Position numbers and translations under genes: made by a program
Notes under the pieces: generated by a model
Databases searched by the model: none
What the model saw: only the letters and a program-made list of their open reading frames with translations
Told to the model about the DNA's origin: nothing
Part shown: positions 1,956 through 32,081 of the stretch, piece after piece
Layout of the letters: every line of letters starts with the position of its first letter
How positions within the stretch are numbered: the stretch's first letter is position 1
From: Vulcanimicrobiota bacterium
GTDB lineage: Bacteria > Vulcanimicrobiota > Vulcanimicrobiia > Vulcanimicrobiales > Vulcanimicrobiaceae
Direction: 5' to 3'
DNA length: 38,919 bases
Assembly: GCA_019235995.1 (NCBI GenBank)
Contig: JAFAJV010000138.1
Coordinates: forward strand, 1-38,919

Positions 1956-2683
1956 GGCGACCACTCCGCGACGAGCACGTGCGTGACCATTGCGAGCTCT
2001 ACGTGACCGCCGCGCTGGAAGCGCTCGAAGAGCACGAGCAGATCGGCGCGCAACGCGTCGCCCTTCTCTCCCGAGCTGGGGAGATACGACGACGACGATG
2101 CACGCCCGAGCAGCGCGGTGCGATCGAGCCGCTGCCGTGAATGGACGTGGCGCGGCGTTACGATAGCGCCGGGGAACGCCGCGAACGTCGCCAGCGCTCG
2201 CTCGCGCAGCGCCTCGGTGTCGTCGGTCGCGTAGGCGCGGACGACGTCGCCATACGCGGCCGTAAACCGATCGCGCTCGTGGCGTTCGTACTGCAGCAAG
2301 GCGGCGCGCCGGCGCGCCACGCGCTGGAACTCACGCATGGCCGCGGCCGTCGCGAACCAGTGGAAGGCCTGGCACGCGACGACGGCGTCGACGCTCGCGT
2401 CGGCCAAGTGGGTGCTCTCCGCCGTGCCGTCGCGCCATGCCACGCCGGGATGCGGATCGGCTTTCGCGCGCATATCCGGGTTCGGCTCGATCGCGATGAC
2501 CGCCGCGCCGCGCTCCGCGAAGAGCCTCGCGGAGATGCCGGTGCCGGCGCCCACGTCGGCAATGGTCAGCCTTTGCGGATCTCCCAAGCCCGCGAGCGCG
2601 GCGTCGATCGCCTCGGGCGGATACGACGGTCGAAACGCGGCGTACGCGCTCGCGCGCGAGCCAAAGCGCGCCGTGGAGTCCAT
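1952..2683 (-). CDS. Class I SAM-dependent methyltransferase
   Basis: This 243-aa cytoplasmic protein is a small Rossmann-fold methyltransferase. Motif I is ADVGAGTGISARLF (about residues 42-55), followed by an acidic residue after the second strand in IAIEPNPDMRA and by VVACQAFHWF, the usual motif IV region of the UbiE/Methyltransf_11 type. The opening MDSTARFGSRASAYAAFRPSYP is typical of the group that begins with a D..F...A..Y...RP.YP element. The ATG shares one base with the stop of the transporter gene upstream (TGATG), and the stop overlaps the hydantoinase start. This places it inside the operon, but its substrate cannot be read from sequence. Confidence 0.88.
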   Translation of the reverse strand: MDSTARFGSRASAYAAFRPSYPPEAIDAALAGLGDPQRLTIADVGAGTGISARLFAERGAAVIAIEPNPDMRAKADPHPGVAWRDGTAESTHLADASVDAVVACQAFHWFATAAAMREFQRVARRRAALLQYERHERDRFTAAYGDVVRAYATDDTEALRERALATFAAFPGAIVTPRHVHSRQRLDRTALLGRASSSSYLPSSGEKGDALRADLLVLFERFQRGGHVELAMVTHVLVAEWSP

Positions 2684-4689
2684 CAGCCCTGTGCCGGCAG
2701 CACGAACGGCGAAGCGAGACGAATCTCGAGGTATCGTCCGCCGCGCTCGATTTCGAACGAGTGCGGCTTGCCGTCATACGCGCGCTGTTGTGCTTGATAC
2801 GTGCCGTAGCGCCACCAGTCCAGGCCGTCGATCTTCTCGACGACGTCGCCGGAGCGCAGCCCGGCTGCATAGGCGGGGCCGCCGGCGCGCACGTACGCGC
2901 GCATGTTCCCGTCGCTGCTCGTGAAGAGCGCGTAGAAATACGTCGGGGACGCGCCGGGTTGCGCCGCGACGCCCGTCTCGAACAGATTCTTGCTTCGTAC
3001 CGGCTCGGCAAGCGCCCACGCCCGCAAGCGCGACGCGCCTTGCAGCGCAAGGTCGCGCGCAGTGCTGACCGAGGACGGCGGCGCGACGACCTCGTGGTCG
3101 TGCCACTCGTTCACGATCCATCCGCCGCAGTCTTCGAGCCGCAAGCCGACGTCCACGTCGTCGCCCTCGATGAGCGTAAAGGTCGCCGCCGCGACGCGTA
3201 CGTATGCCGCGTAGCGCTTGTGCGCACAGTCGCTCGCGTCCGGATCCTCGCGGAGCCGGAGCGTGCGCCACGGGCCGGACGCGAGTGCTTCGGCTGCGGC
3301 ATCGGCGGCTGCGCGCCCGAGCTGCGATCCGTCGTCGTCGACCGCGACCACGCCGCGCGCCGGCGCCGGCGCGTAGAGGCCCGCCGTCAGCTCCTGCGCG
3401 CTCGCCGCTTGCAGCGCCGGCGCGAACGCGCGCACGCTAAAGAGCATCGGCGCACCGAGCACGACGGCTAGCGTCCCCCCGATCGCCACCGCCGTCTGAT
3501 ACGGCAGCGTGCGCTTCGTGATCGTGTCAATCGGCACGCCCGTGAAGTTTGCGATCCAGACGTTCGCGGTGTTGGTCGGGTCGCACACGTTTTGTACCTG
3601 CACTACGGCCATGATCGCGGCGACGAGCACGACCGGCGGCAGCACGTGCGCCGTCAGCAGCACGGTGAAGATCGCGATGCCGACGCCGAACGGGTTGAGC
3701 GGCCCGCGATAGAGCACGAGCGGACTCGCGACGCCGAACAGCGCGACGTACGCGACGGGGTTGCGAAGCCATCCTCCCGCGACGAGGGGGCGCAACGCCT
3801 CGACGAACTGTGGGCGCTGCGTCGCGGCCAGCAGCATGCCGATCCCCATGAACAGGAGCACGGCGGGCGCGACGTCTTCGAGGCCGCGAATCGCCGCGGC
3901 GACCAGTCGCCGCACGGCGCGGCCCGGCCCCGTCACGACGGCGCCGAAGACGGCGGCGACGATGAACGCCGGCGTGGCCTCGAAGTACAAGGCATAGTAC
4001 AGCAGCAGCGGCAGCACCGGCGTGACGAGCGCGATCGCCGGCACGCGCGGCGTCTCGGCCGGCTCCCCGGCGAGCGACCAGGTCGCATAGCCGCGCTCGT
4101 GCCGGAATGAGACCGCGGCATAGACGACGAGCGCCGCGGCATCCAACACAGCCAGCACGATCGCGTAGCGGACGAGCTGCTCCTGTGCGACGCCGAAGTA
4201 TTTCGTGTAGAACGTCCAGTTGGCGATATTGAAGATGAAGCCGAGCGCGAAGCCCATGAGGAACGTCGTCGCGGCGATCGCGCGGGGCACGCCCGCCGTC
4301 ATCATGATCGGCAACACAATCGACCCGACCATGATGATGCCGCCGAGACCCGAGAGCGACGTGAAGAGTAGCGCGACGATTGCGCAAAGCCCGAGCGTCA
4401 GCGCGAACGGCTGCTCCCCGCCGTATTCCGCGGCGAGGTTCACGATCGCCCGCGCGATGCCGGTGTCGATCGTCACTCGGCCGAGCAGCGCGCCGAAGAC
4501 GACGGCGACATAGACGGGCGCCAGCGCCACGGCCCCGCCGGTCACGATGCCGCCGAGCTCGCCCGGCGGCACGCGAGCCGCCAGCGCCATCGCAAGCGCC
4601 ATGCACGGCACCGCCACGATTGCCGGCATCCAGCGCAGATACATCGCGAGCGCAAAGAACGCGAAGACGAGCAAAATAAGGATGCTCAT
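2683..4689 (-). CDS. Polytopic membrane transporter fused to a C-terminal PDZ domain
   Basis: The protein is 668 aa. About the first 440 residues form ten or more hydrophobic segments with conserved-looking loops SGLGGIIMVGSIVLPIM, FNIANWTFYTKY, YRGPLNPFGVG and CDPTNTANVWIANFTGV, reminiscent of the ion-transporter superfamily of organic-anion carriers (CitMHS/DcuC/GntP-like); the exact family is not certain. The soluble tail ends in a PDZ-like segment, AYVRAGGPAYAAGLRSGDVV then EKIDGLDWW, around residues 590-630. The start was set at the ATG at 4689, where the first membrane segment begins; the longer open frame upstream is Arg/Ser-rich and antisense-like. It begins one base after the stop of the GH20 gene, so it is probably the uptake system of this operon. 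A PDZ tail on a secondary carrier is unusual. Confidence 0.75.
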   Translation of the reverse strand: MSILILLVFAFFALAMYLRWMPAIVAVPCMALAMALAARVPPGELGGIVTGGAVALAPVYVAVVFGALLGRVTIDTGIARAIVNLAAEYGGEQPFALTLGLCAIVALLFTSLSGLGGIIMVGSIVLPIMMTAGVPRAIAATTFLMGFALGFIFNIANWTFYTKYFGVAQEQLVRYAIVLAVLDAAALVVYAAVSFRHERGYATWSLAGEPAETPRVPAIALVTPVLPLLLYYALYFEATPAFIVAAVFGAVVTGPGRAVRRLVAAAIRGLEDVAPAVLLFMGIGMLLAATQRPQFVEALRPLVAGGWLRNPVAYVALFGVASPLVLYRGPLNPFGVGIAIFTVLLTAHVLPPVVLVAAIMAVVQVQNVCDPTNTANVWIANFTGVPIDTITKRTLPYQTAVAIGGTLAVVLGAPMLFSVRAFAPALQAASAQELTAGLYAPAPARGVVAVDDDGSQLGRAAADAAAEALASGPWRTLRLREDPDASDCAHKRYAAYVRVAAATFTLIEGDDVDVGLRLEDCGGWIVNEWHDHEVVAPPSSVSTARDLALQGASRLRAWALAEPVRSKNLFETGVAAQPGASPTYFYALFTSSDGNMRAYVRAGGPAYAAGLRSGDVVEKIDGLDWWRYGTYQAQQRAYDGKPHSFEIERGGRYLEIRLASPFVLPAQG

Positions 4690-24337: not shown

Positions 24338-24739
24338 ATGAGTAAAAACCCGCCGATGGAAATCCAGACCCTAATCGAGAATCACGTCAACGCGTTTAAC
24401 ACGCAAGACGTCGATCTCTTCCTGACGGTTTTTGGAGATACCGCGATCATCATCGACGGTATCGCGCCCTACCGGTGGTTGAGCCCGAACGCCCCGGCCA
24501 ATTGGCTCGCCGACGTAGAGAAGTGGCGCAAAGATCTCGGCGTCACGCACGAACAGCTGACATTCGAGATGGGATTCTGGAATGTGGAGGGCTCGCACGC
24601 GTACGCCGTCATATTGGGAAGTCTTGCGGTAACGATCAAGGGCCAGTCCGTCGTTCGTAAAGGCACTCTCGCATACACCTTTTCAAAGCATGACGACCTG
24701 TGGAAAATAGACGCCCAAGCGTGGGGGCGCACGTCATAG
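24338..24739 (+). CDS. Cytoplasmic NTF2-like protein, paralogue of the secreted one
   Basis: The protein is 133 aa; GGAGG at 24326-24330 lies seven bases before the ATG. It has IENHVNAFNTQDVDLFLTVF, GDTAIIIDGIAPYRW and LAYTFSKHDDLWKIDAQAW. These align block by block with AVVVDEVPPFIW and TTYTFHNSGGTWLISSQVW in the protein at 20659-21126, but this copy has no signal peptide. The stop overlaps that of the convergent flavoprotein gene by six bases (24734-24739). Its ligand or reaction is unknown. Confidence 0.82.
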   Translation: MSKNPPMEIQTLIENHVNAFNTQDVDLFLTVFGDTAIIIDGIAPYRWLSPNAPANWLADVEKWRKDLGVTHEQLTFEMGFWNVEGSHAYAVILGSLAVTIKGQSVVRKGTLAYTFSKHDDLWKIDAQAWGRTS

Positions 24740-26143
24740 CGCGCTTTCTGTTCGGCGCGCCGCGCGGACCGCACGCAGCGCGGCGCGACCGAGGACATTA
24801 GCGTAGGTCGGGAAAGAGAGCGAGATTGCGGCGAGGGTATCTACGGTCATCCCGGCGGTCATAGCGATGGCCGCCATCTGTGTGATTTCGACTGCCTGCT
24901 CACCGATAACGTGACAGCCTAAAATTGTCCCGGTCGGTGGATCGACGATCAGCTTGCAGAATCCGCGGGTTCGCCCGTCAATGATTGGCCGCGTCGTTTC
25001 ATCGTACCGCCCAACCGAAACCAGAACGTCATGATGCATCTTCCGCGCTGTTACTTCGGTGAGGCCGACTTGGGCATACTCGGGGTCGGTGAAGCTCCCG
25101 ATCGGATTGATCGAGCCGGACCGTGGAATCCGCGTATCGCTTACCGCATTTGTGCTCGCGACGAATCCATCTTGCACCGCTTGCGGCACGAGCATGAGGC
25201 GTCCCGTGACGTCTCCAGCGGCGAATACGTGCGGCGCAGACGTTTGAAGAAAGTCGTCAACCCGTACCGAACCACGCTCGTTCGTCACGACGCCGGCACG
25301 CGAAAGTTGCAGACCGGCAACGTCAGCGACCCACCCGACAGCAGCCACGGCCAGCTCCGCCTCAACGGAGTTTTCAACGCCGCTCTTGTTAAAAACCATC
25401 CTGACGCCCGAAGGTGACCGTTCGAAGCGTTCGATCCAGCCGAAATCCTCGCGCACGGTGATACCGTGCTCGCGAAACGCCGTCGCAACCTCGCGTGAAA
25501 CGTCCTCGTCCTCCGTCGGTATAATGCGCGGACCCGCTTGAAAGAGCTCGACATGAGTCCCGAAAGCGTTGAAGATCGAAGCGACTTGCACGCCGGTCGC
25601 GCCGGCGCCGACGACAATCATCGATTTGGGAGCTGCCGTCAGCCCGAACGCATCGGCGGGCGTCGCGGTCAGCTCAAAACCCGGCACGTCCAGAGTGCGG
25701 CTCATGCCCCCCGCGCAAATGACGATCTTCTTCGCACGCAGGGTGGGACAGCGCTCGCCGCCGATCGTGCGCGCATCGATGAAGCGCGCCGCTCCCGCGT
25801 GCTCGTACACCTCGACGCCCGCGGCGTCGATCTGGGGGCGCAGCGTCGAATGCGCGGCCGCCTCGGCGACGACTTCGCGCGCGCGTGACAGCAAGACCTG
25901 GTAGTCGACCTTAATTGTCCCGGTCGCGATTCCGTAGCGAGGAAGCTGCCGCGCCTCGCGCAAAAGCCTCGCCGCGTGCGCGAGGGTGCGAACCGGTATC
26001 GGGCCATCGTTCGCAGCCATGCCGCCGAATGCTCCTCGCGTTACGAGGGCCGTCTTCGCTCCCAGATCGGCCGCACGAAGCGCAGCGGCCGTTCCTGCCG
26101 GGCCGGCTCCGATTACGACAACGCCCACGTCGCGCGGCGTCAT
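24734..26143 (-). CDS. FAD/NAD(P) oxidoreductase of the disulfide-reductase fold lacking redox cysteines
   Basis: The protein is 469 aa. FAD loop VVVIGAGPAGTAAALRAADL (8-27), NAD(P) loop SMIVVGAGATGVQVASIFNA (about 174-193), second FAD motif VFAAGDVTG, and a dimerisation domain with GSFTDPEYAQVGLTEVTARK are all present. However, the CxxxxC site is replaced by GGMAANDGPIPVRTLAHA (40-57), and the C-terminal HPTxxE base by SFPTYANV. It therefore cannot be a normal dithiol reductase; a transhydrogenase-, diaphorase- or quinone-reductase-like activity is possible. The ATG at 26143 overlaps the stop of the upstream gene (ATGA), and the frame upstream is antisense-like. Confidence 0.85.
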   Translation of the reverse strand: MTPRDVGVVVIGAGPAGTAAALRAADLGAKTALVTRGAFGGMAANDGPIPVRTLAHAARLLREARQLPRYGIATGTIKVDYQVLLSRAREVVAEAAAHSTLRPQIDAAGVEVYEHAGAARFIDARTIGGERCPTLRAKKIVICAGGMSRTLDVPGFELTATPADAFGLTAAPKSMIVVGAGATGVQVASIFNAFGTHVELFQAGPRIIPTEDEDVSREVATAFREHGITVREDFGWIERFERSPSGVRMVFNKSGVENSVEAELAVAAVGWVADVAGLQLSRAGVVTNERGSVRVDDFLQTSAPHVFAAGDVTGRLMLVPQAVQDGFVASTNAVSDTRIPRSGSINPIGSFTDPEYAQVGLTEVTARKMHHDVLVSVGRYDETTRPIIDGRTRGFCKLIVDPPTGTILGCHVIGEQAVEITQMAAIAMTAGMTVDTLAAISLSFPTYANVLGRAALRAVRAARRTESAL

Positions 26144-27081
26144 TCGCTCGTCTCTCCAAGGAGGACGCTGCCGCCGACCGTCAGAGTGCGCGAATAGGTT
26201 GTGCCCTGGGCGCGAACGACGCCTTCGAGCGGATTCGCGAGATCGACGGAACCGTCGACGCCGCCATACGTCGCCTGAATTTGAAATCGCCGCGAGATCA
26301 ACTGGGCAGTATTCAACAGCAGCGGCGTCGCGTTCGTGGTGAAGTTGTGCGAGACGACCAGTGCCAGCAGCGTCCCGCCTGGCGATCGCCAAAAGGGAAC
26401 GGCTTGTGGGACGAAAACCCACGCCCGCTCGACGCCTGAGGCCGTGCTCGTAGCGAGGTTCGAAATCGGAAAGGCCAGGCTGACGCCCATCGTTCGAGAC
26501 TTGTTCGTGGCGATGTTCAAAAGCGGATTAACGGTATAAGCCGGACCCGGCGCCGCAAGCCCCGGAGATCCGCTCGGCGCCTCATAGGTTAGCAGCAGAC
26601 CTCCGAGGATGCCGCGAGCGCCGTCGACGTAAACCAGCTGTTTGTACCAGAACTGCATATCGGTCGCCCCGGCCACGAGTATACCTCGGGGCGCACTTTG
26701 GATCTGTGAGAACGACGGCGGCAGGATTGTTATCTGCGCGTTATGGGATACGCCGATATTGAGCATCGCACCGGGGTAGCCGAACGCCGACCGGTTCGTG
26801 CTGACGTTAGCGCTCGAATGGCCCAAGTCGAGCCTCACGTTCGCCGGGATGTACGTGCTCGCATATGTCGCCTGAACGCTCGCCTGACCGGCGACGAAGA
26901 CGCACGGCGAAGCCGCCAAATATTTCTTCAGCAGTTCGTGCGAGCCGCCACACGGGTCTCGCGAGGGGCTCGTCGCGGCCGGCGGGGCCGCGCTCGCCGT
27001 AGGCGTCGGAGAAGCTTCCGCCAGACTCATGAAAAACGACAAGGCGAGGGCTACCACGGTACCGTAAGTATCCACGATCAC
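26140..27081 (-). CDS. Secreted protein upstream of the flavoprotein, possibly beta-barrel
   Basis: This 313-aa protein has a signal peptide (VVALALSFFMSLAEA) followed by a Pro/Ala/Ser/Thr-rich linker (about 24-40). Two cysteines bracket a helix (DPCGGSHELLKKYLAASPC). The remainder is rich in alternating hydrophobic strands (RLDLGHSSANVSTNRSAFGY, RFQIQATYGGVDGSVDLANP) and Asn/Ser/Thr, consistent with an outer-membrane or periplasmic beta protein. The start is GTG 27081 (a second GTG lies two codons later); no strong ribosome binding site is seen. It overlaps the flavoprotein start by four bases and is divergent from the DyP operon with 48 bp between starts. The family is not recognised. Confidence 0.7.
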   Translation of the reverse strand: MIVDTYGTVVALALSFFMSLAEASPTPTASAAPPAATSPSRDPCGGSHELLKKYLAASPCVFVAGQASVQATYASTYIPANVRLDLGHSSANVSTNRSAFGYPGAMLNIGVSHNAQITILPPSFSQIQSAPRGILVAGATDMQFWYKQLVYVDGARGILGGLLLTYEAPSGSPGLAAPGPAYTVNPLLNIATNKSRTMGVSLAFPISNLATSTASGVERAWVFVPQAVPFWRSPGGTLLALVVSHNFTTNATPLLLNTAQLISRRFQIQATYGGVDGSVDLANPLEGVVRAQGTTYSRTLTVGGSVLLGETSE

Positions 27082-27129: not shown

Positions 27130-27690
27130 ATGAGTTCAGCTGGAGGCGACTGGACTAAACCGGCCGCCATGGCCATCCCAAAAGAAGGATATGTTGAGTA
27201 TCAAAAGGGCGATTACGGTCCGGTTTTTCCGCGGACGCCCGCCTGTTACGGCTTTACGATAATCGCGAAGGCGAAGCCGGGTCGCGAAGCGGTCTTCTAT
27301 GAGTATGGTAAGCGCATTGAAGCGGCCCTACGCGACAATCCAAACTATTTGGCTCCGCTCAAACTACACTACCTGAAATGGGTGCTCTTTGATATCGGCA
27401 ACGACAAGTACTTTATGTATCAGGGCATCTTCGATACCGACTTCGACAAATATACCGACGATGCCGTAGCGCTTTTCAAGAAAATCGGCGTCGACACGGT
27501 TTTCGAGAATTTGGAAGGGTTTCCAGAGGACTGGAAGACGAACGTGCCGGCGTTCGTCAAATTCGTTCGCGAGCATCATCGGCCCAGCTTCATGGAATAC
27601 GGCGAATACCCGTATGTCAGCGCCGACGAGATCAAGAAGGCGCTGCACGTCAAGCAGGCCCTGGGCGATATGCTCGATCAAATGCAGTAG
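27130..27690 (+). CDS. Dimeric alpha/beta-barrel protein, possible heme-binding partner of DyP
   Basis: The product is 186 aa, with AGAGGAG about seven bases before ATG 27130. The core reads ACYGFTIIAKAKPGREAVFY, then LKLHYLKWVLFDIGNDKYFM, FDTDFDKYTDDAVALFKKIG, and VFENLEGFPEDW, a ferredoxin-like alpha/beta repeat of the type shared by DyP peroxidases and chlorite dismutases. The C-terminus, FVREHHRPSFMEYGEYPYVS, has a His pair. There is no signal peptide. It is nine bases upstream of the 335-aa gene and heads the DyP operon. Fold assignment is by pattern only. Confidence 0.72.
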   Translation: MSSAGGDWTKPAAMAIPKEGYVEYQKGDYGPVFPRTPACYGFTIIAKAKPGREAVFYEYGKRIEAALRDNPNYLAPLKLHYLKWVLFDIGNDKYFMYQGIFDTDFDKYTDDAVALFKKIGVDTVFENLEGFPEDWKTNVPAFVKFVREHHRPSFMEYGEYPYVSADEIKKALHVKQALGDMLDQMQ

Positions 27691-27699
27691 GGAGGTCAT

Positions 27700-28707
27700 A
27701 TGGCCACGCTCGGACGCACTTACAACCAGAGTCACCTGCCCCGCAAATACGAGCGTGGAAAGCGCCGGTTCAGCGTGTACTGGACGTGGAGCTATCCGTG
27801 GGAATCGAATGCCGACGTTACCGAGCTCGACAACCGCTTCTCGACGATGACCGAGGTGCGGCGTGTCGGGTGGCCCACGTACGAAACCGAAGACTATTCA
27901 CGCCGGATGTTCCTGCAGGGGATCGAGGGAACTCTCGAGCTTTTCCACCTCTCCCTCTTGAACTTCCAGCGCGTCGTCGGCGAGGTAACGGGCCAGCCCG
28001 TAGCGGTCTACCAACGCGTCGACCAGGCCGGCCAGAAATTGCCGATCGACCAGCGGATACTCGACGACACCGATACGATGATGATCTTCGGGCTCGACCA
28101 TATCGTGACCGAGCAAGAGGCCGCACCCGAAGAGATCGCCGCGCTCAAGGCTTTCGTCGCGCGCGAAGGCACGTGTCTGCTGCTGGCTCCCCATCATGAC
28201 GTCGGCGTCTCCGACGATCCGAACGTGCGGAACATGGAGTACTTTCACCACGGCGATCCCCTCGTGCCACGCCAGCAGCGGTTTGCCAAGTACGTTCGTT
28301 CGCTGATGCGCGGGCTAGGCGTGCCCGTGGAAAATCGTTGGGGTCTTCGGCCCGCCACGCTGCCAGGCACGACGAAGACCGTGCCGCTGGCGATTAACGG
28401 CGACTTGGATAAGCGCGGCTGGCTCACGAACGTCAAGACGTTCGTCTTTCACATGCATCTGCCACATTATGCCGTCACGAAGGAGGACGCAAAGGACATC
28501 CACGTTTTGGCGCGCCAGCCGATCGATCTGTGGAAACCGCATCCGTTCACCGAGGCGGGAAACCGGGAGTTCAACATGTTTTTGTGGATGCCGCCGTCCG
28601 GAGATCGCGCCGGCGATATCCTGCTCGCGGACTCCACGATCTTTACGACGCTCTTCGGCGGTGACGAAAGCCTCGAGAATTTCTGGAAGAATCTCGCGAC
28701 CAAATGA
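27700..28707 (+). CDS. Unknown 335-aa protein of the DyP operon, possible GATase-like fold
   Basis: GGAGG at 27691-27695 precedes ATG 27700. The N-terminal third is rich in Trp and Tyr (FSVYWTWSYPWESNADVTEL). The middle, TMMIFGLDHIVTEQEAAPEE then IAALKAFVAREGTCLLLAPH, resembles the strand-helix-strand core of class I GATase/DUF4350-like proteins, in which a flexible region follows FVxxGG. His residues are frequent in HHDVGVSDD, EYFHHGD and FVFHMHLPHYAV. No signal peptide is seen. The stop overlaps the DyP start (ATGA, 28704-28707), so the two are translationally coupled. I do not recognise a named family. Confidence 0.7.
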   Translation: MATLGRTYNQSHLPRKYERGKRRFSVYWTWSYPWESNADVTELDNRFSTMTEVRRVGWPTYETEDYSRRMFLQGIEGTLELFHLSLLNFQRVVGEVTGQPVAVYQRVDQAGQKLPIDQRILDDTDTMMIFGLDHIVTEQEAAPEEIAALKAFVAREGTCLLLAPHHDVGVSDDPNVRNMEYFHHGDPLVPRQQRFAKYVRSLMRGLGVPVENRWGLRPATLPGTTKTVPLAINGDLDKRGWLTNVKTFVFHMHLPHYAVTKEDAKDIHVLARQPIDLWKPHPFTEAGNREFNMFLWMPPSGDRAGDILLADSTIFTTLFGGDESLENFWKNLATK

Positions 28708-30044
28708 CCGTGGCGCGGTTGCAACTCGACGACATCCAAAGCGGCGTGCTGCGCCCGCGTCCCACCCCGTTTGTGGCAACCTACATCATTCTGCGCATCG
28801 ACGACCGCGAAGCAGGGCGCAAGCTGATGGGCCGGCTGAGCGAAGTCGTCGCCTCGGCCGCGAATCCCGAAAGCGCGGCGCGCGACACCTGGGTGAGCGC
28901 TTCCCTGAGCTACGCAGGGCTCGAGGCGCTTGGCCTTCCGCAGGCATCGCTCGAGAGCTTTTCGGAGCCGTTCAAGCAGGGGATGGCAGTCCGTGCAAAC
29001 CGATTGGGTGACGTCGGCGAGAGCAGCCCCGAGCACTGGGAGAAGCCGCTCGGCTCAGCCGAGATCCACGTAGTACTCACAGCGATCTCACCGGATGCGC
29101 CGAATCTCGAACGGGCCCTCGATCGCGCTCGCAAAGCTTACGCGGAGTTTACCGGCATCAGCGCGATTTGGCGGCAAGACTGCCACGTGCTTCCGGGGGA
29201 GCGCGAGCCGTTCGGCTTCAAGGATGGCATCAGCCATCCGGCCATCGAGGGCAGCGGCATTCCCGGCACCAATCCCCATGAAACGCCGTCCAAGCCCGGT
29301 GAATTCGTACTAGGTTACCCGGACGAGATGAGTGACGCTCCCGCGATGCCGCACCCGAGCGTCCTTGGGAGAAACGGCAGCTACATCGTGTTCCGTAAAC
29401 TCTATCAGCGCGTGGCGTCGTTTCGCCAATACTTGCGCGCAAACGCAACGGATTCCGTGCCCGAAGAGCTCCTGGCGGCAAAGATGATGGGCCGATGGCG
29501 AAGCGGCACACCTCTCGCGCTCAGTCCGAGCACAGACGATACAAACATCGGCGACGACCCGCGACGCAACAACGCCTTTCTTTTCAAGGACGATGATGCG
29601 CTGGGCTACAAAACGCCGCTCGGATCGCACATCCGCCGCGTGAACGCTCGCGATGCCGACATCGCAGGAGTCACCCGGATCCACCGCATGATCCGTCGAG
29701 GGACCGCGTACGGGCCGCCCTTGCCCGACGGCATGATGGAAGACGACGGGGTAGATCGCGGGCTGATGTTCGCCTTTGTCGGCGCGAACCTGGCCAGGCA
29801 GTTTGAGTTCGTGCAATCCGAATGGATCAATAACAGTGCCTTCTTCGCCGGACCCGCCACCGAGCGGGATCCGATCGCCGGCGCGGGCGATGGAAGCGGA
29901 ACGTTCGGCATCCCGCGCCGACCGATTCGGATGAAGTTGGAGGCTTTGCCGCGCTTCGTCGTCACGCGCGGCGGCGAATATTGTTTCCTTCCGAGCTTAA
30001 GCGCACTGCGCTGGCTCGCAGACGGCAAAAATTACGCGACTTGA
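28704..30044 (+). CDS. DyP-type heme peroxidase
   Basis: This 446-aa protein carries the DyP signature GFKDGISHP (171-179) with distal Asp174. The proximal heme ligand is probably His309 in PLGSHIRRVNARD, and the distal Arg lies in HRMIRRGTAYGP (327-338). The C-terminal domain contains GLMFAFVGANLARQFEFVQS. DyPs oxidise dyes, phenolics or metals with H2O2. There is no Tat or Sec signal and no obvious encapsulin-targeting tail, so a cytoplasmic enzyme is expected. It is coupled to the 335-aa gene by ATGA and ends 11 bases before the stop of the convergent DUF1345-like gene. Confidence 0.93.
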   Translation: MTVARLQLDDIQSGVLRPRPTPFVATYIILRIDDREAGRKLMGRLSEVVASAANPESAARDTWVSASLSYAGLEALGLPQASLESFSEPFKQGMAVRANRLGDVGESSPEHWEKPLGSAEIHVVLTAISPDAPNLERALDRARKAYAEFTGISAIWRQDCHVLPGEREPFGFKDGISHPAIEGSGIPGTNPHETPSKPGEFVLGYPDEMSDAPAMPHPSVLGRNGSYIVFRKLYQRVASFRQYLRANATDSVPEELLAAKMMGRWRSGTPLALSPSTDDTNIGDDPRRNNAFLFKDDDALGYKTPLGSHIRRVNARDADIAGVTRIHRMIRRGTAYGPPLPDGMMEDDGVDRGLMFAFVGANLARQFEFVQSEWINNSAFFAGPATERDPIAGAGDGSGTFGIPRRPIRMKLEALPRFVVTRGGEYCFLPSLSALRWLADGKNYAT

Positions 30045-30055
30045 ATGCGCTGGCT

Positions 30056-30655
30056 TTAACCGAGAATGTTTACGGCGCGAGCGGCGGCGATCGCGATGGT
30101 CGTCAGTGAGATTGCGGATTCGAGCATCATCAACATTCGCGCCCTCGTGGTCACGGGCGGCGTGTCCGTTGGACTGAATGCGGTCGCGGTCGTAAACGAG
30201 AGAAAGAGGTAATCCAAGAAAACGAGCGGGCGCGCAGCGATTCCCGCCTTCTCGGGAAAGATGAAGTCCTCCTGACCGATCCACCGGTAGAAGACGCCAA
30301 AAAGGACGACATTCGAGATCCAGATCACAAACGCCGACCCCAGCAGCTTGACGCCGTCGATCTTGCTGGCGTGAAAGATGACCCGGTAGACGATATTCGA
30401 AAGACTTCCAAAAAGGATTAGCGTTAACACGGCCGCCACCGAGATCATCGCGATTCGCGCGCCTCTTCTCGTGCCGCTAATGGTCAGCACGATGGACAGA
30501 ACACAGGCCATGGCCAGCAGAATGCCTAGCACCAGCGTCACGCCGGGACCACCTACCGTATACCGGTTTGGTATGCCGACGTAGAGAGCGAGCACGAACA
30601 CAAATGCGCAACTTTCGCCCCAGTCGCGGTGAAAAGAGCGCCGCCTGTGTTCCAT
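30056..30655 (-). CDS. DUF1345-like membrane protein
   Basis: The 199-aa protein has five or so membrane segments (CAFVFVLALYVGI, TLVLGILLAMACVLSIVLTI, IAMISVAAVLTLILFGSL, FVIWISNVVLFGVFYRWI). A C-terminal re-entrant-like stretch reads FLDYLFLSFTTATAFSPTDT, followed by RARMLMMLESAISLTTIAIA. This last part resembles DUF1345 and two-pore channel-like pore regions. It starts one base after the DUF2252 gene stop, so the two form an operon. The transported species, if any, is unknown. Confidence 0.75.
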   Translation of the reverse strand: MEHRRRSFHRDWGESCAFVFVLALYVGIPNRYTVGGPGVTLVLGILLAMACVLSIVLTISGTRRGARIAMISVAAVLTLILFGSLSNIVYRVIFHASKIDGVKLLGSAFVIWISNVVLFGVFYRWIGQEDFIFPEKAGIAARPLVFLDYLFLSFTTATAFSPTDTPPVTTRARMLMMLESAISLTTIAIAAARAVNILG

Positions 30656-30656
30656 C

Positions 30657-32027
30657 CTACTCGGTGTGCGCCTCGATCGTGCCGGCCCCTACGGCCTCTC
30701 TCAACGCATGGTGATCTCGTTCGGTTTGATCGGCGTACGCGAATGCAAACCTCGTTACCGCTTCTTCGAATGCATCGCTCTTTCCAAGGTAGCCGCTCAT
30801 CATCTGCGGATTCCCGGACTTGGCGTGAGCGCGAGCGAGGTTCCACCCGCACGCACGCGCATACGCGTCGAAAAGAGGCTCGTCAAAGCTCTCGACATTT
30901 GCGCTGATCTTTGCGTCACGGAGCTGCCGGACGTAGAACTCTCCGTTCGGTCCGGAAGTCCACCCCAAGAAGATGTCGGAAGCCGCCTGCATCAGGCGCT
31001 GGCCCGCTACCACTCGCTGGCCGTGATGCGGGTACGTGCTCTTGCCCGCAAAAGGCTCCAAAACCGAAGGATGGGCCTGTTTGAACTGCAGAAAAAGCGG
31101 CTCGTTCGCCGATGACATGAACAGAGCGATCCAGCAGCGCGTACCGACGCTTCCGATGCCGACGACCTTGATGGCAGCGTCGACGAACCGAAAATGGTCG
31201 AAAAGAGAGCGCCGATCGTCGGGAAGTGTTTCTCGGTACTCGATTAGGATTTTCTCTACCCGCCGTGAAAATTTCGCGGCACCTGGAATCTCGGGATGAA
31301 ATATGAGGGGAGGGCTGTCGTGAATACGGAGCACTCCGTTAACCGCTTCGGCGAGCTTTGGGTAATCGACGTCGGAACCGCGGCGCGCGCCCGCCTTCGC
31401 GATTCGTCGCGCGATCCTGTCTCGAGCTGCCGTGGGAACGTAGGCCAAAAAATCCTCTGAAGACACTTTTGCGTACCAGACTCCAAGTGGATCCATCTTG
31501 GAGAAAGCGCGAATCCCTTTGCGGTACGAGCGAACGCACGTGATCGCGACGGCGCGCGCAACAGCTTTTGGCAGACCGTTCTCGCGAACGGCTAGGACGA
31601 AAGAGACTGCGAGGCGCTTGACATCCCACTCCCATGGAGCGGGGAGTGTCTCATCAAAATCGTTGATGTCGAAGATGATGGCCCTCTCCGGCGATGCGAA
31701 ACCGCCGAAGTTCTTCAAATGACAATCGCCGCACGCCTGAACCGTGAGACCAGTCGAGGGCGTGCGGGCGAGATCGGCGGCCATGACCGCAGCCGATCCC
31801 CGAAAGAAGGCGAACGGAGACTGCAGCATACGACCGTATCGGATCGGAACCAGCTCGGGAAGGCGGTCGGCATCGGCATTGCGCAGGACACCGAGTGGAT
31901 CGCGTCGCGACGCGAACCTCGGATCGGCTTGGCTTGAGGGTGGAACGGCGTCTCGCAAGGCCTTCCCCGCGGCAACAAGGTCCTGCGGCGACATTCGGCG
32001 CGCTTCAGCCGCGTCGATCCTCCTCAT
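30657..32027 (-). CDS. DUF2252 protein (kinase-like fold)
   Basis: This 456-aa protein has the DUF2252 signature: RLPELVPIRYGRMLQSPFAF, FRGSAAVMAADLA, VQACGDCHLKNFGGF and AIIFDINDFDETLPAPWEWD, the last two corresponding to the catalytic-loop and metal-binding Asp regions of aminoglycoside-phosphotransferase-like kinases. The C-terminal part contains ACGWNLARAHAKSGN. The substrate is unknown. The ATG at 32027 was chosen; a TTG three codons earlier is also possible. It is the first gene of a two-gene operon with the membrane protein. Confidence 0.9.
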   Translation of the reverse strand: MRRIDAAEARRMSPQDLVAAGKALRDAVPPSSQADPRFASRRDPLGVLRNADADRLPELVPIRYGRMLQSPFAFFRGSAAVMAADLARTPSTGLTVQACGDCHLKNFGGFASPERAIIFDINDFDETLPAPWEWDVKRLAVSFVLAVRENGLPKAVARAVAITCVRSYRKGIRAFSKMDPLGVWYAKVSSEDFLAYVPTAARDRIARRIAKAGARRGSDVDYPKLAEAVNGVLRIHDSPPLIFHPEIPGAAKFSRRVEKILIEYRETLPDDRRSLFDHFRFVDAAIKVVGIGSVGTRCWIALFMSSANEPLFLQFKQAHPSVLEPFAGKSTYPHHGQRVVAGQRLMQAASDIFLGWTSGPNGEFYVRQLRDAKISANVESFDEPLFDAYARACGWNLARAHAKSGNPQMMSGYLGKSDAFEEAVTRFAFAYADQTERDHHALREAVGAGTIEAHTE

Positions 32028-32081
32028 GAGCGTCAACTTCTCAAAAAATTAAGGAATATCCCGTAGATTTGACCATCGGGA

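Follow-up and report, generated by a model that had tools for sequence, protein, structure and literature searches.

Introduction

The physiological role and the substrates of DyP-type peroxidases are a standing question (PMC8197335, PMC10820274). DrDyP from Deinococcus radiodurans (PDB entries 8re2 and 8re3), which its authors assigned to class C/V, was characterised alone and reported to be inactive at physiological pH (PMC10820274). SaDyP1 and SaDyP2 from Streptomyces avermitilis were likewise studied alone and showed low activity, in a paper that never uses the words 'operon', 'neighbour' or 'cluster' (PMC8395514). Here we analyse a related gene in its genomic setting, on a 38,919-nucleotide stretch of DNA from a Vulcanimicrobiota bacterium (contig JAFAJV010000138.1 of assembly GCA_019235995.1, positions 1 to 38,919; the whole stretch is hereafter the window), where a class V/C DyP is the last of three adjoining genes, the others encoding a 186-aa protein (A186) and a 335-aa protein (B335). 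An earlier note on this DNA, made from the letters alone, had proposed a multi-component heme-dependent oxidation system rather than a lone peroxidase. We arrive, with a probability of roughly 70%, at the reading that the locus is a horizontally spread, multi-component heme oxidation module around a cytoplasmic class V DyP, with A186 as its dedicated partner.

Results

The three open reading frames run on the plus strand exactly where the earlier note had placed them: A186 at 27130..27690, B335 at 27700..28707 and the 446-aa DyP-type heme peroxidase at 28704..30044. The tight joining that it described is borne out, as the A186/B335 junction reads TAG-GGAGGTCAT-ATG, with a 9-base gap that contains GGAGG, and the B335/DyP junction (AATGACC) is a 4-base ATGA overlap. 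Ribosome-binding sequences precede both A186 and B335. The third gene is indeed a DyP, passing the curated NCBIfam cut-off for TIGR01413 (112.5 bits against 100.5, E 2.4e-32) and finding its best PDB sequence match in DrDyP (8re3, E 8e-128; 8re2 is the second DrDyP entry) at 48% identity. The motif GFKDG (GxxDG) at 29214-29228 contains D174, and in alignment with DrDyP the distal D174, the proximal H309 and the distal arginines R331/R332 are all kept. On these sequence grounds the protein belongs to DyP-type class V/C, with heme peroxidase activity predicted, and is in itself an already known kind of enzyme; its N-terminus lacks a Tat-type (twin-arginine translocation) signal. Encapsulin, absent from the locus according to the earlier note, is absent from the whole genome of the window as well (PF04454 gave no match there and did give matches in control genomes), and an encapsulin link for this DyP was therefore rejected. 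PADLOC models for anti-phage defence systems matched neither A186, B335 nor the DyP, leaving a defence-system reading unsupported.

We scanned 84,980 species genomes with B335, which gave 234 relatives, of which the best 80 loci were retained. A186 and a DyP were both present in 75 of these 80 loci, mostly adjacent, and in 78 of 86 when loci from the window's own phylum were added. Contig ends account for most exceptions (L015, L023, L032, L051), and L039 holds DyP fragments only. The trio loci come from 11 phyla, which places the association far above chance, and the median gaps between the genes are 16-44 bp. The earlier note had staked its reading on DyP homologues keeping these neighbours, and across phyla they are kept. 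A186 itself retains about 70% identity across phyla, and annotated records label both A and B 'hypothetical protein'. The distribution is patchy: of 149 genomes in the window's phylum, 5-6 have A, 7 have B and 17 have a class V DyP. On the B335 tree, phylum labels are scattered. In a close relative (L092 of genome G005, 2597-3915, minus strand) the cassette DyP is split in two frames, by a frameshift or an assembly error.

The loci fall into two types. The order A-B-DyP carries GxxDG in 26 of 26 cases, with L067 (GYLDG) in addition, and the order A-DyP-B carries GxxDR in 43 of 44, with L024 (GYLDR) in addition; the sole exception, L083, has its DyP on the opposite strand. Between the types, identity is 67% for A, 65% for B and 44% for the DyP. 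Distance matrices for A, B and the DyP are correlated with one another (r 0.62-0.89, 0/2000 permutations). The DyP type switches five times on the A tree and on the B tree and once on the DyP tree, and a single clade of all G-type rows on the B tree was rejected (p-AU, the approximately unbiased test, 1.3e-68). Therefore, A and B form a stable core around which either the peroxidase was swapped or two ancestral copies were differentially lost. As read from these trees, gene order followed the DyP change, the A-B pair being the stable part of a mobile cassette and the peroxidase its exchangeable part. In a Beijerinckiaceae metagenome-assembled genome, an intact R-type A-DyP-B cassette has beside it a remnant (L037:2132-2300, minus strand) that consists of pieces of B335 and of the C-terminal part of a DyP and resembles a decayed G-type A-B-DyP cassette, so that this genome seems to have housed both types.

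The linkage of A186 to class V DyPs reaches well beyond the B335 cassettes. Distant A-like domains, often at about 30% identity or below, adjoin other class V DyPs. A wider A-like profile found loci in 11 of 147 Eremiobacterota genomes, all adjoining a class V DyP except in G004, where the cassette ends at a contig end; in 246 Actinomycetota genomes all A-like hits adjoin or lie near a class V DyP, bar one partial hit. Starting from the peroxidase, an A-like gene or domain precedes the DyP in 29 of the 36 loci examined, in the same orientation and within about 1.5 kb, and the only DyPs above 320 bits that lack one are L113 (contig cut) and L119 (A186 further upstream inside the cassette). Some of the earlier loci had gone into the training of the wider profile; a strict profile from A186 only still matches most. 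In plasmid DyP loci, which had no part in profile building, the A-like domain is upstream or fused in 12 of 12, DrDyP of Deinococcus radiodurans included, whose upstream gene encodes an A-like protein (L165). Fusions go further still, as a cytochrome P450, two A-like domains and a DyP form a single polypeptide in Pararhizobium qamdonense and Novosphingobium aromaticivorans (L171:717-4988 and L176:714-5045; 1423 and 1443 aa). Conservation, recurrent adjacency and natural fusions thus lend strong support to the multi-component proposal, with more genes involved than the three that the earlier note had counted. Some A-like proteins have two domains with a hydrophobic stretch in between, and in an Acidobacteriota locus a 957-aa DyP-P450 fusion (L156:6105-8975; the same gene is in L124) directly follows a two-domain A-like protein. 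The fifth GxxDG position in class V DyPs with A-like partners is variously G, R, M, S or A (L165:3429-4802, L168:3450-4850, L169:3450-4817, L173:3453-4832). The exchangeable cassette appears not to have been described before, nor do the A-like family and B335: searches of the open literature on oxylipins, P450, catalase-related enzymes and operons with a DyP turned up no account of the trio or the companion, subscription literature lying outside this scope.

Neither A186 nor B335 matched a family in Pfam, NCBIfam or PADLOC or a relative in PDB, whether searched as single sequences or as profiles; weak hits from these searches (MepB-like, 4q34) were judged to be chance. The AlphaFold2 model of A186 (41 sequences; mean predicted local distance difference test score, pLDDT, of 79) is one ferredoxin-like alpha+beta domain. 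Its structural matches are small alpha+beta proteins, among them mutarotases (Z 7.6), a polyketide cyclase (Z 7.5) and the heme-degrading MhuD (Z 6.3; the range for MhuD and IsdG is Z 5-6.3), all of them a likeness at fold level only. The earlier suggestion of a DyP/chlorite-dismutase-like unit, which was to fall if the protein showed neither a ferredoxin-like fold nor a heme pocket, accordingly survives as a single predicted ferredoxin-like unit and fails for chlorite dismutase/HemQ, since the model has one such domain and not two fused per chain. Chlorite dismutases were not among the structural matches listed for A186, and we do not take absence from a ranked list as evidence. H80 (27367-27369), D102 and Y108 are invariant in the cassettes, and 27-28 of 31 distant A-like domains retain these three residues as well as P132; from this conservation we infer that H80, D102 and Y108 mark a functional site.

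For B335, the AlphaFold2 model (39 sequences; mean pLDDT 78, predicted template modelling score 0.83) resembles the GIFT domain of IFT52 (5fms; Z 14.2, root mean square deviation 3.0, 201 residues aligned), ThuA-like 1t0b (Z 13.0, 3.4, 206 aligned) and STM3548 (Z 12.6). A GATase1/ThuA-like (GIFT) fold is thus predicted, in line with the GATase-like core that the earlier note had suspected. When the 39 B335 members were scanned with ThuA and DUF4350 Pfam profiles, a single sub-threshold DUF4350 hit (E 0.12) was found. A glutaminase of GATase1 type was rejected, as the alignment holds no invariant Cys, C159 is Thr or Arg in some members, and the strand is followed by P-H-H-D. Instead, H165, H166, D167, H183, H184, D186, H251, H253, H256, H281 and D311 are invariant even at 40% identity, within motifs such as PHHDVG (28189-28206), HHxD, HxHLPH and HPF, and this invariance suggests a metal or acid-base site, probably one for metal. 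Remote relatives of the B335 fold (35-40% identity) occur outside class V DyP cassettes at L088:8025-8978, L090:8001-8957 and L094:5883-6881, one of them adjoining a PLP (pyridoxal phosphate)-dependent decarboxylase.

The conserved cassette extends to the left as far as 24338, with genes on both strands, an extension that the earlier note had overlooked. An FAD/NAD(P) pyridine-nucleotide oxidoreductase (24734..26422, minus strand, true start probably near 26146; Pyr_redox_2 and Pyr_redox_dim) is 60-75% identical to cassette flavoproteins from several phyla. Both redox cysteines are lost in every aligned member of this family, and a disulfide-type reductase mechanism is therefore unlikely; NAD(P)H-to-acceptor or oxidase chemistry would be the alternative. 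A 133-aa SnoaL-like protein (24338..24739, plus strand) shares 74-77% identity with a SnoaL-like gene in three other cassettes. Divergent from A186 lies a 313-aa protein with a signal-peptide-like start and no Pfam match (26140..27081, minus strand), whose relatives in two other Eremiobacterota cassettes are 55% and 43% identical and which occupies the place that an outer-membrane channel holds in other cassettes. In neighbour clustering, the recurrent partners were the pyridine-nucleotide flavoprotein, an SBF transporter, SnoaL-like proteins and outer-membrane channels, the last from three families with no relation to one another (Phenol_MetA_deg, OprB and DcaP). On the other side, a weakly DUF1345-like membrane protein (30056-30655, minus strand) is convergent to the DyP, and a DUF2252 protein (30657-32036, minus strand; E 8e-147) adjoins the cassette; in Rhodococcus koreensis, too, a DUF1345 gene is found close to the DyP (L166:7196-7897).

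Where B335 is absent, other third partners stand beside A and the DyP. P450s neighbour the pair in L153, L154, L160 and L162 and are fused in L156, making 5 of the 13 loci sampled, and class 3 lipases (L153, L154) and GMC oxidases (L157, L163) occur as well. A CYP74-type identity for these P450s was considered and is not proposed here, their best PDB matches being ordinary bacterial monooxygenases. A catalase-family protein, with a sub-threshold Pfam match only, accompanies the pair in Deinococcus, Rhodococcus, Agrobacterium, Novosphingobium, Acinetobacter and Paracoccus, and some loci carry acyl-CoA genes (3-hydroxyacyl-CoA or acyl-CoA dehydrogenases, a thioesterase). These third-partner genes point to hydrophobic or lipid substrates, and, by positional analogy, suggest that B335 occupies the slot of a product-processing enzyme.

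Discussion

The observations from which we argue are gene linkage, conservation, predicted folds, domain fusions, a DyP-type change around a stable A-B pair and the loss of the flavoprotein disulfide. From these we infer a physical complex, heme or metal in A186 or B335, an order of reactions and a substrate that may be a lipid or a hydrophobic aromatic. The flavoprotein, having no redox disulfide, would probably provide electrons from NAD(P)H or hydrogen peroxide. A186 probably either binds to the peroxidase or has substrate or heme in common with it, and may present or gate the substrate, which compound I of the DyP would oxidise as a hydrophobic compound. B335 would most likely convert the product of this step, in the slot held elsewhere by a catalase-family protein or a P450, while the SnoaL-like, outer-membrane channel and secreted proteins may handle or import the hydrophobic substrate. 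A bolder version, which we hold only tentatively, is that class V DyPs in general depend on an A-like protein as an essential subunit or activator, and that enzymes such as DrDyP have so far been studied without it. Their native reaction would then be the oxidation of lipids or other hydrophobic compounds by several enzymes together, with B335 as a new, metal-dependent enzyme of ThuA fold that takes up the product of the DyP.

Several points weigh against the module as we read it. The 80 loci are the nearest B335 relatives and not a random sample. Four distant DyPs (L097, L114-L116) have no A-like neighbour, and neither A186 nor a class V DyP adjoins the remote relatives of B335 (35-40%) found in Rhizobium, Caballeronia and genome G031, so that a tie to DyP does not hold for B335-fold proteins in general. 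Confidence in the two models is moderate (mean pLDDT 79 and 78), residues 35-81 of B335 are modelled poorly, and the structural matches of A186, with Z up to 7.6, reflect a common arrangement only. Moreover, the lipid-related neighbours come from other A+DyP lineages and not from B335 cassettes.

That last point also bears on a possible, still doubtful, reading as lipid oxidation of oxylipin type, in which A and the DyP make or use fatty-acid (hydro)peroxides, to be converted by a catalase-family protein, a P450 or B335 as third partner. The P450s, one of them fused, the class 3 lipases, GMC oxidases, catalase-family proteins, acyl-CoA genes and the hydrophobic stretch in two-domain A-like proteins are all consistent with it, whereas the P450s resemble ordinary bacterial monooxygenases and the catalase-family assignment is sub-threshold. 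The cassette might alternatively be a cluster for degradation or detoxification of aromatic or phenolic compounds, with an ordinary peroxidase surrounded by transport and downstream catabolism; the recurrent Phenol_MetA_deg, OprB and DcaP channels and SBF-type transporter would fit, as would the oxidation of anthraquinone dyes by class V DyPs (PMC8395514). However, no ring-cleavage or aromatic-acid gene recurs among the identified neighbour families, the channels are unrelated to one another and missing from Actinomycetota maps, and the strict A-DyP linkage and the fusions are left unexplained, so we give this account limited credence. It is unlikely that A186 is a heme-handling protein of HemQ/IsdG/MhuD type that loads, stores or removes the DyP heme and has no catalytic or substrate-binding role. 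Its predicted ferredoxin-like fold, the weak MhuD/IsdG matches, the conserved His80, the strict pairing with a single heme-enzyme class and the partly apo state of class V SaDyP1 when expressed alone (PMC8395514) would suit such a role, but H80 lies on the second strand of the model and not, like the ligand of Cld/DyP type, on a helix (PMC4835899), Q or E replaces it in 4 of 31 distant domains, and two A domains, as in the P450-A-A-DyP fusions, would be unusual for a chaperone. Finally, mere co-travel of uncoupled genes, for which the patchy distribution (B335 in 7 of 149 genomes of the phylum) and the scattered labels on the B335 tree could be cited, is already made very unlikely by the comparative evidence: the genes occur in two orders across 11 phyla with short gaps between them, their divergence is correlated, A and B persist while the DyP type changes repeatedly, and gene fusions exist.

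An unannotated companion thus stands beside nearly all close class V relatives examined, even the structurally solved DrDyP, and much-studied class V DyPs may have been assayed without a missing partner. The proposed heme oxidation module with A186 as partner also points to two protein families, A-like and B335, and to a mobile cassette, spread over 11 phyla, whose exchangeable part is the peroxidase rather than its partners.

Other DyP systems share some of these features. Encapsulin-DyP systems also pair a DyP with a dedicated partner, but there the partner is a shell protein, of which this genome has none. The efeUOB iron-uptake operon (EfeB; PMC8197335) is likewise a multi-gene system with a DyP, although that DyP is an exported class I enzyme accompanied by EfeU/EfeO, genes absent from the window locus, and the window DyP carries no Tat-type signal. 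IsdG, MhuD, HemQ and chlorite dismutase have a ferredoxin-like fold that A186, going by its predicted model, may share; A186 differs in having no sequence relation found to them, a single domain and an unmatched heme-ligand position. ThuA-like, GATase1-like and GIFT proteins share the fold predicted for B335, which belongs to no detectable sequence family, has no glutaminase-type nucleophile and carries a distinctive invariant His/Asp cluster. SaDyP1 and SaDyP2 resemble the window DyP in being class V, in their GxxDG motif and in not being secreted (PMC8395514). DrDyP differs in its GxxDM motif and in a third partner that is a catalase-family protein, with no B335, yet it is the closest solved structure, keeps the proximal His, distal Asp and Arg, and has an A-like gene of its own upstream.

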